Assembly (NCBI RefSeq): GCF_000423845.1
Contig: NZ_AUIT01000010.1
Location: 1 to 64,000, forward strand
DNA: 64,000 bases
From: Thermodesulfobacterium hveragerdense DSM 12571
GTDB lineage: Bacteria > Desulfobacterota > Thermodesulfobacteria > Thermodesulfobacteriales > Thermodesulfobacteriaceae
Direction of reading: 5' to 3'
Part shown: piece by piece, positions 10,176-15,751 of the stretch
Position numbering within the stretch: position 1 is the stretch's first letter
Layout of the letters: every line of letters begins with the position of its first letter
The notes under the pieces: generated by a model
What the model was told of the DNA's origin: nothing
Seen by the model: only the letters and a program-made list of their open reading frames with translations
The model's database searches: none
Made by a program: the position numbers and the translations under genes

Positions 10176-11078
10176 ATGTTAATAAAAGACGTGATGATCG
10201 ATGAAGTCTTTAAGGTTAACCCTGAAAGTAGCCTACTAGAATTGGTTTGTTGTTTTATAGATAAAGAGATTGGAAGTGTGGTTGTAGTAGATCAACAACA
10301 AAAACCCATACAGATTATTACTCTAAGAGACCTGCCTAAAATTTTCTTATTTGCCCCAACACCTTCTAACGTAGAAGAAGTTCTTCAGGCTTTAGGTAAA
10401 GACAAGAAATCTCTTATAACTGTTAAAGTTGAAATGCCCCTTATAGAAGCCATAAACCTTATGGCCAGGTTTAACATAAGCCATCTTCCGGTAGTTGATG
10501 ATAATTCTAAACTGTTAGGTCTTCTAAGCTTAAAAGACATAATAAAGTCTGTACCTAACATGATGTATATAGACCATCTTACTGGGCTAAACAACAGACT
10601 TTACCTTGATTTGCTAATCCCTAAACTTAAAAGAACTAAAGGTCCTATTGGTTTTATTATGGCAGACATAGACAACTTCAAAAACATAAACGACATCTAT
10701 GGACATCTGGTAGGAGATGAAGTTTTAAAGGCAGTTGCCAAGACCTTGAGAAAAAACGTAAAAATAAGTGATGAGGTTATAAGATATGGAGGAGAAGAAT
10801 TTTTAATCATCCTCTACAGGTGTGATTTAGACAAGGTAAAAATGGTTGGAGAAAGGTTGAGAGAACGGGTTATGGAAATAAGTTTTGAAAATAATCCTAA
10901 TCTAAAGGTTACGATCAGTTTAGGGGGTTGTGAATACAGAGGAGAAAAAAACATAATGGGATACATTTCTTTAGCTGATCAAGCGCTTTATCGGGCAAAA
11001 CAGTTAGGTAAAAACCGGGTTGAAGTTTTAAGATTAGAGGAAAAAAATGAATTTTGTGAGATAGGCCCTATTTTATAG
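10176..11078 (+). CDS. CBS-pair diguanylate cyclase (GGDEF)
   Basis: The N-terminal 125 or so residues form two CBS motifs, which in other proteins bind adenine nucleotides or similar ligands. The rest is a GGDEF domain with DHLTGLNNR, MADIDNFKNIND and the active signature GGEEF, so it should make c-di-GMP from two GTP. The inhibitory RxxD site five residues before GGEEF reads KISD, so product inhibition is probably weak or absent. There are no membrane segments, so the protein is cytoplasmic. The last 11 nt overlap the convergent tadA gene. It is likely a nucleotide-responsive c-di-GMP synthase; the output pathway is not in the window. Confidence 0.92.
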   Translation: MLIKDVMIDEVFKVNPESSLLELVCCFIDKEIGSVVVVDQQQKPIQIITLRDLPKIFLFAPTPSNVEEVLQALGKDKKSLITVKVEMPLIEAINLMARFNISHLPVVDDNSKLLGLLSLKDIIKSVPNMMYIDHLTGLNNRLYLDLLIPKLKRTKGPIGFIMADIDNFKNINDIYGHLVGDEVLKAVAKTLRKNVKISDEVIRYGGEEFLIILYRCDLDKVKMVGERLRERVMEISFENNPNLKVTISLGGCEYRGEKNIMGYISLADQALYRAKQLGKNRVEVLRLEEKNEFCEIGPIL

Positions 11079-11538
11079 TCTCTCTCTTTAGTCTAAAGAA
11101 TTCTTTTAAAAGTTGGGCTGCTTGTTGCTTCAATAAACCTTCTTTCATTTTAATCCTGTGGTTTAACCTTAGATCACTGATTATTTGATAGAGGCTAACA
11201 CAAGCCCCTGTTTTTTCATCTCTGGTAGCAAAGATCAATTCTTCTATTCTTGCAAGCACAAGAGCATAGGCACACATCGCACAGGGCTCAAGGGTCACAT
11301 ACATCTTACATCCCAAAAGTCTAAAATTACCAATCCTTTGACAGGCCTCTCTTATGGCTAAGATTTCGGCATGAGCTGTTGGGTCGTTTTGTTTTAGAAT
11401 TTGATTTCTTCCTCTACCTATGATTTCTCCTTTAGGAGAAACAATCACTGCCCCCACAGGTACTTCATCTTCTTCAAAGGCTTTTAAAGCCTCTTTTAAA
11501 GCCTCTTCCATAAAATATAAGTCCTCTTCTCTGAACAT
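11068..11538 (-). CDS. tadA: tRNA-specific adenosine deaminase
   Basis: TadA converts A34 to inosine in tRNA-Arg(ACG). The 156-residue protein has the cytidine-deaminase fold motifs: HAE with the catalytic glutamate (HAEILAIR) and PCAMC supplying the zinc ligands, plus the N-terminal EALKEALKAFEEDEVPVGAV segment typical of TadA. It is the last gene of the minus-strand kdsA-to-tadA run, 6 nt after ispH. Its 3' end overlaps the opposite gene by 11 nt. Confidence 0.93.
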   Translation of the reverse strand: MFREEDLYFMEEALKEALKAFEEDEVPVGAVIVSPKGEIIGRGRNQILKQNDPTAHAEILAIREACQRIGNFRLLGCKMYVTLEPCAMCAYALVLARIEELIFATRDEKTGACVSLYQIISDLRLNHRIKMKEGLLKQQAAQLLKEFFRLKRETIK

Positions 11539-11544
11539 CTCATA

Positions 11545-13188
11545 CTACCCTAAACTTCTGATCAAAAGCCCACAGACTAAAAAAGTCAAGGAAACCATAA
11601 TCACCAAGGTTTCTAAGTACACCACCTGGCCAAGAGGTCTTTTTTTCACTATCAAACTAAGTAAATAAGCTACCCCCCAAATCAGATAAAATACCCCGAA
11701 CTTGTAATCTAAAAAACTTGTTAAAATAGTAATCAACAGTCCTCCTAAAACTAATAAGGTTAAAACTTTAAAGAAAATTTTTGGTTCATACGAAAAGGTA
11801 GAAAGCATAAAATTTTTCGGTAAAAAGCCATCGGTCTGAAAATAAACTATCTCTAAATAAAGTTTTAGGTATAAAATCACAAAAACAACTTGTAAAAAAA
11901 TAACTCCAAAACTAAAAGTCCAAAAAGGATATAAATAAAGAGAAAGGGCTGACAAGAAAAGTATCTCCCAAAAAAAGGTTATCGGACTTCGATAAGTAAG
12001 AAAGTCAATCAACAAAAGTGCTATCACTAAACTTATTATCCTTGGTTTATAAAAAAAAGCGGTTATTAAGGTAAAAAAACCCGTTAGCACAGCAAAAAAC
12101 AAAAGTTTTTTTTGATTTTGAGAAAGAAACCTGTGTTTTATCGGAAGGTAAAACTTAAAACTTTCTTTTAAAAGATTTTGGTTTAAAAGGTTTCTAAAAA
12201 GGCTAAAACTTAAAAACCATAAAAGAAGATAAGAAAACTTAGAGTTTAAAGGATGGTTAATCCCTAACAACAGCCCAAGAAAAATTAAAAATAGGGTTAA
12301 CGACCAGGTAGCCGAAGAAAAACACATAGCTTTTAAAAACTTATAAAAAAAAGAAGTTCTATTCTTTAAAAAATCGACTACCTCGTTGATTAGCCAGTTA
12401 GGGGTTGAGGCTCCTGCGGTTATACCTACTTTTTTGTGTTTCTTCAAATCTTCCCAAGAAAGTTCTTCAGGACTTTCGATAAGAAATACATCTTTATTTT
12501 CTTTCTTAGCTACCTCTGCTAAGCGGTTAGTGTTGGCACTAAACTTTCCTCCTATAACTACGATAGCCGAACATTCCTCACAAAGCTTTCTAACCTCGTT
12601 TTGCCTGACTGCTGTGGCATTACAGATGGTATTGATGATCTTTCCGTTAGGATAAAGAGACGTTATCCTTTTAGAAAGATGGTTAAACAGTTTTTCGTCT
12701 TGGGTAGTTTGAGAAAGAATAACATAATTTTTAAGAGGTGGAAGGTTTATAACGTCTTCTTCTGAAGAAACCACATATCCTTTACCTTCACAATAACCAA
12801 GAATACCTTTTACTTCTGCATGATCTTTATCACCTATGATCACTACCTCTTTTCCCTCTGATACAGCTTTTTTGGCCAAAGCCTGAACCTTAAGGACCCT
12901 GGGACAGGTCCCATCTATAACCTTATGTTTTTCTGCCAATGCTTTATATTCTTTTGGAGGTACCCCATGGGCACGAATGATTACCATTCCTGAGGGAAGG
13001 TTTTCTTTAAAATTTTTCAACACTCTTACCCCAAAAATATCAAGAAGTTTTAAGGTCTGAGGATTATGGATTAAAGGACCATAAGTATAGATGGATGATT
13101 CTTTCTCGTTTAAAGCCTTTAATACTAAATTTACCGCCCTTCTTACACCCATGCAAAAGCCAGCTTTTTTAGCGATCTTTATCTTCAT
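11545..13188 (-). CDS. ispH: 4-hydroxy-3-methylbut-2-enyl diphosphate reductase (IspH) with C-terminal multi-spanning membrane domain
   Basis: Residues 1-280 are a complete IspH/LytB, the last MEP-pathway enzyme, which reduces HMBPP to IPP and DMAPP with an iron-sulfur cluster. The three cluster cysteines are at C12 (AGFCMGV), C95 (DGTCPRV) and C189 (TICNATAVRQ), and RAHGVPP and TAGASTPNW are present. Residues 285-547 add about nine hydrophobic helices (roughly 290-309, 317-334, 361-379, 384-399, 402-421, 424-446, 471-491, 498-513, 522-543). The helix number resembles UbiA prenyltransferases, but I see no NDxxDxxxD motif. The better known IspH extension is an S1 RNA-binding domain, which this is not. 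The gene overlaps radC by 4 nt. Confidence 0.9.
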   Translation of the reverse strand: MKIKIAKKAGFCMGVRRAVNLVLKALNEKESSIYTYGPLIHNPQTLKLLDIFGVRVLKNFKENLPSGMVIIRAHGVPPKEYKALAEKHKVIDGTCPRVLKVQALAKKAVSEGKEVVIIGDKDHAEVKGILGYCEGKGYVVSSEEDVINLPPLKNYVILSQTTQDEKLFNHLSKRITSLYPNGKIINTICNATAVRQNEVRKLCEECSAIVVIGGKFSANTNRLAEVAKKENKDVFLIESPEELSWEDLKKHKKVGITAGASTPNWLINEVVDFLKNRTSFFYKFLKAMCFSSATWSLTLFLIFLGLLLGINHPLNSKFSYLLLWFLSFSLFRNLLNQNLLKESFKFYLPIKHRFLSQNQKKLLFFAVLTGFFTLITAFFYKPRIISLVIALLLIDFLTYRSPITFFWEILFLSALSLYLYPFWTFSFGVIFLQVVFVILYLKLYLEIVYFQTDGFLPKNFMLSTFSYEPKIFFKVLTLLVLGGLLITILTSFLDYKFGVFYLIWGVAYLLSLIVKKRPLGQVVYLETLVIMVSLTFLVCGLLIRSLG

Positions 13189-13934
13189 AAGATTTCTCTC
13201 CTTATCTCTGCCTTTAACCTATCTATATCCCCCTTTTCAGCCAAGCTGTAATAACCATTCTTACCTATGATAACATGGTCAAGTACCTTAATCTGAAGAA
13301 GTTCTCCTGCCAAAACAAGTCTTTTAGTAAGCATTAAATCCTCTTTAGAAGGGGTAGGATCTCCAGAAGGATGGTTATGGACGATCACTATGGAAAGAGC
13401 CTTTTTCTCCAGCGCTTTTTTAAAGATTTCTCTTGGATATACCGCACTTTCATGTAAAGTTCCTTCAAAAAGGGTTTCTCCTCCTAAAACCTTAGATTTA
13501 GTATCAAGAAAAAGAACTTTTAACACCTCTCGGTCTAAATTTTGCATTTCATATTTAAGATATTCGTATACCTCTTGCGGAGACCTTAGGTATTCTGACT
13601 TTGTCGCCCTACTCTGAAGATATCTTCGAGCAACCTCATGGATAACCTTTAAAGGTAAAATAGCTTTTTCCTTAAGTCCCTTAAACTTTTTAAGTTCTTC
13701 TAAAGGAGCATCAAGTACTTGGTCTAAAGTCTTATATTGCTCTAAAAGAGCTCTTGCAAGTTTTCTGGTATCTCTATAAGGTAGGCTAAACATCAAGAGA
13801 AGCTCAAGCAAGTCTTCATCTGTAAAACTTTTTGACCCTTCTTTAAGAAACCGTTCTTTTACCCTGGATCTGTGTCCTTTGGCCTTTTCATAAGCCTCTA
13901 TCAAAATTTTTTGAGAATATTTTTTTTCAGACAT
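13185..13934 (-). CDS. radC: RadC/UPF0758-family JAB domain protein
   Basis: RadC-like proteins have an N-terminal helix-hairpin-helix region and a JAB/MPN metallo-domain. Both are seen in these 249 residues: the LLELLLMFSLPYRDTRKLA segment with FKGLKEKA, then the metal motif HNHPSGDPTPSKED. The function is not settled; a direct repair role was withdrawn in E. coli, and a link to recombination or competence is suspected. It is translationally coupled to ispH (4-nt overlap) and lies 17 nt after lptC. Confidence 0.92.
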   Translation of the reverse strand: MSEKKYSQKILIEAYEKAKGHRSRVKERFLKEGSKSFTDEDLLELLLMFSLPYRDTRKLARALLEQYKTLDQVLDAPLEELKKFKGLKEKAILPLKVIHEVARRYLQSRATKSEYLRSPQEVYEYLKYEMQNLDREVLKVLFLDTKSKVLGGETLFEGTLHESAVYPREIFKKALEKKALSIVIVHNHPSGDPTPSKEDLMLTKRLVLAGELLQIKVLDHVIIGKNGYYSLAEKGDIDRLKAEIRREIL

Positions 13935-14397
13935 GTTAGAAGATAATAAGTTTAAAAACTCATCTGAAATTGAGCCCTTCCTTGCACCTGAAAATTACCT
14001 TCTTTTATATTATAGGTCATACCCTTTCCTCTAACTAACATCCCTTTTTGTTTTACTAAAACCTCTCTTTCCGTAAAAAGATAATTCTTCTTAGGGAAAA
14101 ATATCAACTCTTCGGTATATACTTCTCCGTGGTTTTCAGTAAGCAATTTTACATTGCCTTGAAAAACTATTTTGTCCTCTTTCGGATAGTAATAACCTCT
14201 CTGAGAAGAGACGTTAATTCCTTTGGATGGACTGATTAAAGTTAAACCTTCTGCCCAAAAGGCACCTTCTTTATCACGTTTAAAGAAAGATGCTTTAAGC
14301 TTCCAAAGAAGTCCTTCTTTACTGTAAAAACTGTACTCCAAATCTTTGGCTACCATACGAAAATCTTTGGATAAAGAAGGAAAAACTAAACACAACA

Positions 14398-15751
<1,354 letters not shown>

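Follow-up and report, generated by a model that had tools for sequence, protein, structure and literature searches.

The window, a stretch of 64,000 nucleotides from Thermodesulfobacterium hveragerdense DSM 12571, contains a gene in which IspH, the essential LytB-type enzyme of isoprenoid precursor synthesis, continues into an integral membrane domain (Table 1). The two parts lie in one uninterrupted frame of 547 residues, with no stop between the domains, which agrees with the original prediction made from the sequence. Separate genes or a frameshift artefact were ruled out by the same single frame being open in independent genomes of the genus, the family and the order. The closest named relative is Thermodesulfobacterium thermophilum DSM 1276, at 92% identity. 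The gene is part of a tight run on the minus strand, at 11068–15718 of the window, of genes resembling kdsA, kdsC, lptC, radC, ispH-ubiA and tadA, names that were assigned by reading the translations.

Table 1. Features of the fusion gene and its neighbours, in window coordinates
Feature	Coordinates	Strand	Remarks
IspH-UbiA fusion gene	11545..13188	minus	547 codons plus stop; ATG start, no internal stop
IspH (LytB) domain, residues 1–277	12358..13188	minus	PF02401, E 4.7e-91; Foldseek 3dnf/3f7t
UbiA-fold membrane domain (predicted), residues 278–547, nine TM helices	11548..12357	minus	AlphaFold2, VIA-align, profile-profile comparison
TM2-TM3 cytosolic loop, residues 340–358	12115..12171	minus	Place of UbiA motif 1, without the Asp motif; alignment of 72 fusions
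Remodelled motif 2, residues 444–460, YLEIVYFQTDGFLPKNF	11809..11859	minus	Only the last Asp (D453) kept
Clade-specific third motif, residues 517–528, RPLGQVVYLETL	11605..11640	minus	Cytosolic TM8-TM9 loop
Upstream neighbour, RadC-like gene (named by reading the translation)	13185..13934	minus	Stop overlaps the fusion start (ATGA)
Downstream neighbour, TadA-like deaminase gene (named by reading the translation)	11068..11538	minus	

The two halves of the protein

The IspH part has a mean hydropathy of −0.20. The LYTB family model (PF02401) covers residues 3–274 with 305 bits, against a cut-off of 24.5, and TIGR00216 scores 281, against a cut-off of 187.9; NF000907 also matches the IspH part only. 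The three cluster cysteines (C12, C95 and C189) are invariant in 67 aligned fusions, as are the residues H41, H74, H123, E125, T161/T162, S217, N219 and S261, which we take to be the substrate pocket by their presumed correspondence to positions in E. coli IspH. As far as can be read from these residues, the IspH half is complete and catalytically intact, and it is very probably the working enzyme. A search of the genomes of the order found one IspH in the window genome and no second copy; the same genome also encodes IspG and two polyprenyl synthases.

The membrane part (residues 278–547) has a mean hydropathy of +1.05. Nine transmembrane helices were modelled, at residues 293–309, 316–339, 359–380, 384–398, 402–419, 425–450, 469–493, 495–515 and 529–546. 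Searched alone, this part matched nothing in Pfam or NCBIfam, and PF01040, the UbiA family, was not matched by the window protein. PF01040 is matched within the order by the fused frames of sister families and of other genera of the same family (E 8e-11 to 2e-5), and across the phylum by each of the 27 fused domains that were scanned in genera and families other than the window's (E up to 0.01, best 7e-17). A profile of the window clade aligned with these PF01040-matching domains along almost all of its length (hhalign probability 97%, E 2.9e-11).

The AlphaFold2 model of the membrane part (pLDDT 95.8, pTM 0.93) is a nine-helix UbiA fold. Its best Foldseek matches are UbiA structures, with probabilities up to 1.0 and TM-scores of about 0.6, every E-value being at least 0.001. 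VIA-align 2 puts UbiA-family entries in all of the first ten places (Z 11.8–16.0 over about 240–257 residues at 8–12% identity), led by UBIAD1 in its complex with HMGCR (8djk_B, Z 16.0), and soluble polyprenyl synthases rank after them. A profile of the fused UbiA domains searched against PDB sequences gave one weak UbiA match (4tq3, E 0.006), which is superseded by the fold comparison. A non-UbiA membrane fold was ruled out by Foldseek and VIA-align, though the window protein finds no family by sequence. Given the predicted fold, the VIA-align matches and the homology traced through intermediates, the nine helices and the resemblance to UbiA that had been proposed from the sequence are therefore right. 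The profiles and models together indicate that the membrane half descends from UbiA prenyltransferases. A single-chain model of the whole protein has a pTM of 0.87, a value that is compatible with, and suggests, halves held in a defined, fixed arrangement.

The fusion as such had been reported before. Rao et al. (2015, Chem Sci, PMC4746011) described 47 IspH-UbiA sequences from sulfate reducers, mainly Desulfobacterales, as 'Rosetta stone' proteins. These authors named the UbiA part PT_UbiA_5, of function not known, and reported that it holds two DXXXD motifs. Their attempts at expression, including that of the fusion from Thermodesulfatator atlanticus (a species that probably belongs to the order of the window genome), gave only truncated or aggregated protein, and a full-length active IspH-UbiA was not obtained (PMC4746011). 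No later functional work on IspH-UbiA was found in the literature searched. The window protein has the same order of parts, comes from the same phylum and has the same nine predicted helices as the published fusions, and like them it has a UbiA-like domain C-terminal of IspH in one polypeptide, by common descent. Another C-terminal IspH fusion that recurs in anaerobes, IspH-RPS1 (PMC4746011), differs in that its partner is the soluble ribosomal protein S1.

Distribution and origin of the fusion

The fusion extends across the order and, beyond Thermodesulfobacteria, over much of the phylum, where many families have it. Of the 41 genomes of the order, 38 yielded an IspH, and all but three of the copies lie in frames of 546 aa or more, enough to hold the fusion; the three exceptions end at or near contig ends. 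Used as a query, the membrane half hit these frames again in most members of the genus and the family. The fusion is thus conserved in Thermodesulfobacteria, and the homologues are joined, not always separate, as they would have been had the prediction been wrong. In 395 sampled genomes of the phylum, the IspH frames form a long set of about 565–690 aa and a short set of about 280–440 aa, split largely by family.

The profile of the fused UbiA domain matched 41 places in 40 of 108 genomes, a number below the true count of fused genomes, since members of the window clade have diverged too far to pass the profile cut-off chosen. Forty of these places are in frames of 507–904 aa. The remaining one, with a far weaker score, is a separate frame of 293 aa (L158, G069:C6:208084–208851), and the same genome carries a fused copy as well. 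This UbiA subfamily hardly ever occurs unfused.

In a tree of the IspH domain, a quick one in which some rows have long branches, a single branch (SH-aLRT 99) parts 67 fused from 15 stand-alone proteins. The tree fits a single fusion event, most likely early in the phylum Desulfobacterota/Thermodesulfobacteriota and followed by retention. A match from Nitrospirota (L056) is a stand-alone IspH of 280 aa. In the one neighbour survey, the genes around the fusion recur in clusters only within sub-lineages. The few clusters inspected hold genes like those for dihydrouridine synthase, glycosyltransferase, rRNA methylase and ParB (named by reading), none of which suggests isoprenoid metabolism.

For one relative (L005, G023:C10:30607–31404), the genome search reports a single TAA in the matched region, probably where the match overruns the terminal stop; the extracted frame is 545 aa and free of stops. 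A MAG of family f25 (L157, G062:C37:2500–7000) has an intact IspH frame, 321 aa when counted from the start of IspH, and a UbiA half broken by a TGA and a TAA, either through decay of that half or through an assembly error.

Replacement of the UbiA motifs and constraint on the membrane domain

The motifs were surveyed in an alignment of 72 fusions, with conservation counted over 67; the window clade comprises 19 proteins from three genera. Across the phylum, most fused UbiA domains carry subfamily forms of the two UbiA motifs, N(R/H/N)xxD-x6-NDPxR for motif 1 and (D/E)xxDxQGDxxxGxET for motif 2. Motif 1 is gone from the window clade: the Asp at N+4 and the NDP are each found in 0 of the 19 proteins, and neither canonical form (NDxxDxxxD or NxxxDxxxD) is present. 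Motif 2 reads YxExxYxQ[ST]DGFLPxxF, so that the canonical DxxDxxxD type is replaced by ExxYxxxD in 19 of 19 and only the last Asp survives, a residue that is present in 66 of the 67 fusions. Y444, E446, Y449, D453–P457 and F460 are invariant in the clade, and a third motif, RPLGQxxYxE, has become fixed, with L519, G520, Q521, Y524 and E526 likewise invariant in 19 of 19. E526 is kept in 60 of the 67 fusions. The absence of Asp-rich motifs noted in the original prediction thus holds for the window protein, save for one retained Asp (D453).

Neither of the two DXXXD motifs of the published fusions is intact in the clade, which has fixed new motifs in their place; this pair of motifs, reported for the published set and not necessarily defining it, is likewise incomplete in several more of the phylum's families. 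The UbiA superfamily prenyltransferases (4tq3, 4od4, 6m31/7bpu, 8j8j and UBIAD1, 8djk) share the nine-helix fold and the cytosolic motif loops with the window protein, which differs from them in lacking motif 1, in having motif 2 cut to one Asp, and in an identity of 8–12%.

Other lineages show other states. Six proteins from sister genera within the family have Ala in place of the motif-1 Asp and an intact motif 2, an intermediate state. Several other families have Gly, Asn, Ser, Leu or Ile at this position. On the tree, the motif-1 Asp must have switched state at least five times, a count that cannot tell gain from loss and that comes from a quick tree with some long branches; a description of these changes as losses only was not adopted for this reason. 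Seven proteins of families f105, f68, f75 and f32 form a second lineage in which the NDP is lost and motif 2 is kept, with the motif-1 Asp lost in most members (such as MHTLNRFIN...IGSFRE). Their sequences indicate that this lineage changed by a different route from the window clade.

In informative pairs of the window genome and its relatives, dN/dS is 0.20–0.24 for the membrane half and 0.07–0.09 for the IspH half; one pair with almost no synonymous change gave an uninformative 0.5. At 0.20–0.24, the membrane half is constrained and is not decaying freely. Identity of the membrane part to the window protein ranges from 27 to 66% within the clade, and fifteen of its columns are invariant, mostly in two cytosolic motifs. 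Of the 21 membrane-part positions that at least 90% of the clade share, 19 are found in cytosolic loops or no more than six residues from the cytosolic ends of helices, mostly at 444–460 and 517–528, in a topology that was taken from the predicted model with IspH placed inside. By this model, the conserved face is the side of the UbiA active site, where IspH must also lie. No description of motif loss with retained constraint in this domain was found in the literature searched, and this is what is new here.

Possible roles of the membrane domain

The reading that best fits these sequences and models, with a probability of about 60%, is that the UbiA half of the window clade is no longer a standard prenyltransferase and serves as a conserved membrane module that holds or regulates the cell's only IspH. 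This IspH is joined in one polypeptide, by a continuous helical linker, to the UbiA-derived nine-helix domain. Because the metal-diphosphate-binding Asp of motif 1 and most of motif 2 are gone, the usual Mg-dependent prenyl transfer has most likely been lost, this loss being measured against a subfamily whose motif 1 departs from the canonical UbiA form even in members that retain the Asp and whose own activity is putative. The module would have been retained with a rebuilt, invariant cytosolic site on the IspH side. We infer that the membrane half would hold IspH at the membrane in vivo, and the rebuilt site may bind an isoprenoid, a lipid or a partner protein. That a UbiA half without the catalytic motifs is conserved all the same speaks against prenyl transfer as the reason, or as the sole reason, for the fusion. 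E446, D453, Q521 and E526 are specific residues at which an anchoring role in the membrane, or feedback on the final MEP pathway step, could be probed.

Three of the invariant residues stand against this reading. Since D453, E446 and E526 remain, some metal or diphosphate chemistry is possible, and the UbiA half could be an active prenyltransferase with altered metal or diphosphate ligands. Local feeding of such a transferase by IspH is the Rosetta-stone reading of Rao et al. (2015), who argue for prenyl transfer by the UbiA part (PMC4746011), and it draws on the last motif-2 Asp being so widely kept, on the D/E-rich motif 2 of many fusions, and on the many members that match PF01040 and retain NxxxD...NDP. 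Against it stand the missing motif-1 Asp and the lost motif-2 DxxD of the window clade and the repeated changes of the motif-1 Asp on the tree. IspH, moreover, makes C5 units, and known bacterial UbiA enzymes mostly take long prenyl diphosphates; an active transferase is a possible but unlikely explanation here. A purely passive anchoring role, without a site in the membrane part itself, is quite unlikely. It would account for the low identity of the membrane part within the clade, for a dN/dS about three times that of IspH, and for the broken UbiA half beside an intact IspH frame in L157, but the fifteen invariant columns exceed what such an anchor needs. IspH takes two electrons per turnover, and its hosts are anaerobes with membrane respiratory complexes, so the membrane part might place IspH next to an electron donor in the membrane that serves its iron-sulfur cluster. 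In the clade alignment, no conserved His or Cys able to bind heme or a cluster was seen in the membrane part, and among the neighbour clusters inspected in the one survey no redox gene recurs beside the fusion, making this role very improbable.

Another role that may be considered, by analogy and at rather low odds, is that of a pseudoenzyme that senses a prenyl diphosphate, a quinone or another membrane isoprenoid and sets the activity of IspH. Mammalian UBIAD1 is described as a member of the UbiA proteins with a link to geranylgeranyl diphosphate, and as a binding partner of HMG-CoA reductase (PMC8641950, PMC9314443); it is also described as an active enzyme (PMC8641950). In both systems a UbiA-fold partner is coupled to a reductase of isoprenoid precursor synthesis; UBIAD1 and HMGCR differ from the fusion in being separate proteins, in belonging to the mevalonate pathway and in the activity of UBIAD1. 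Such a sensor may be a one-chain bacterial counterpart of the control of HMG-CoA reductase by UBIAD1, and is worth testing.

The window genome encodes one other UbiA (L103), which scores well above the TIGR01475 cut-off and near the MqnP models, below their own cut-offs. A separate, complete UbiA is therefore present, as the prediction had suggested looking for, and because this MqnP-type protein has full motifs (NRLVDKPFDEKNPRT, with SGFDVLYSLQDYEFD as motif 2), quinone prenylation could be carried out by it and need not involve the fusion.
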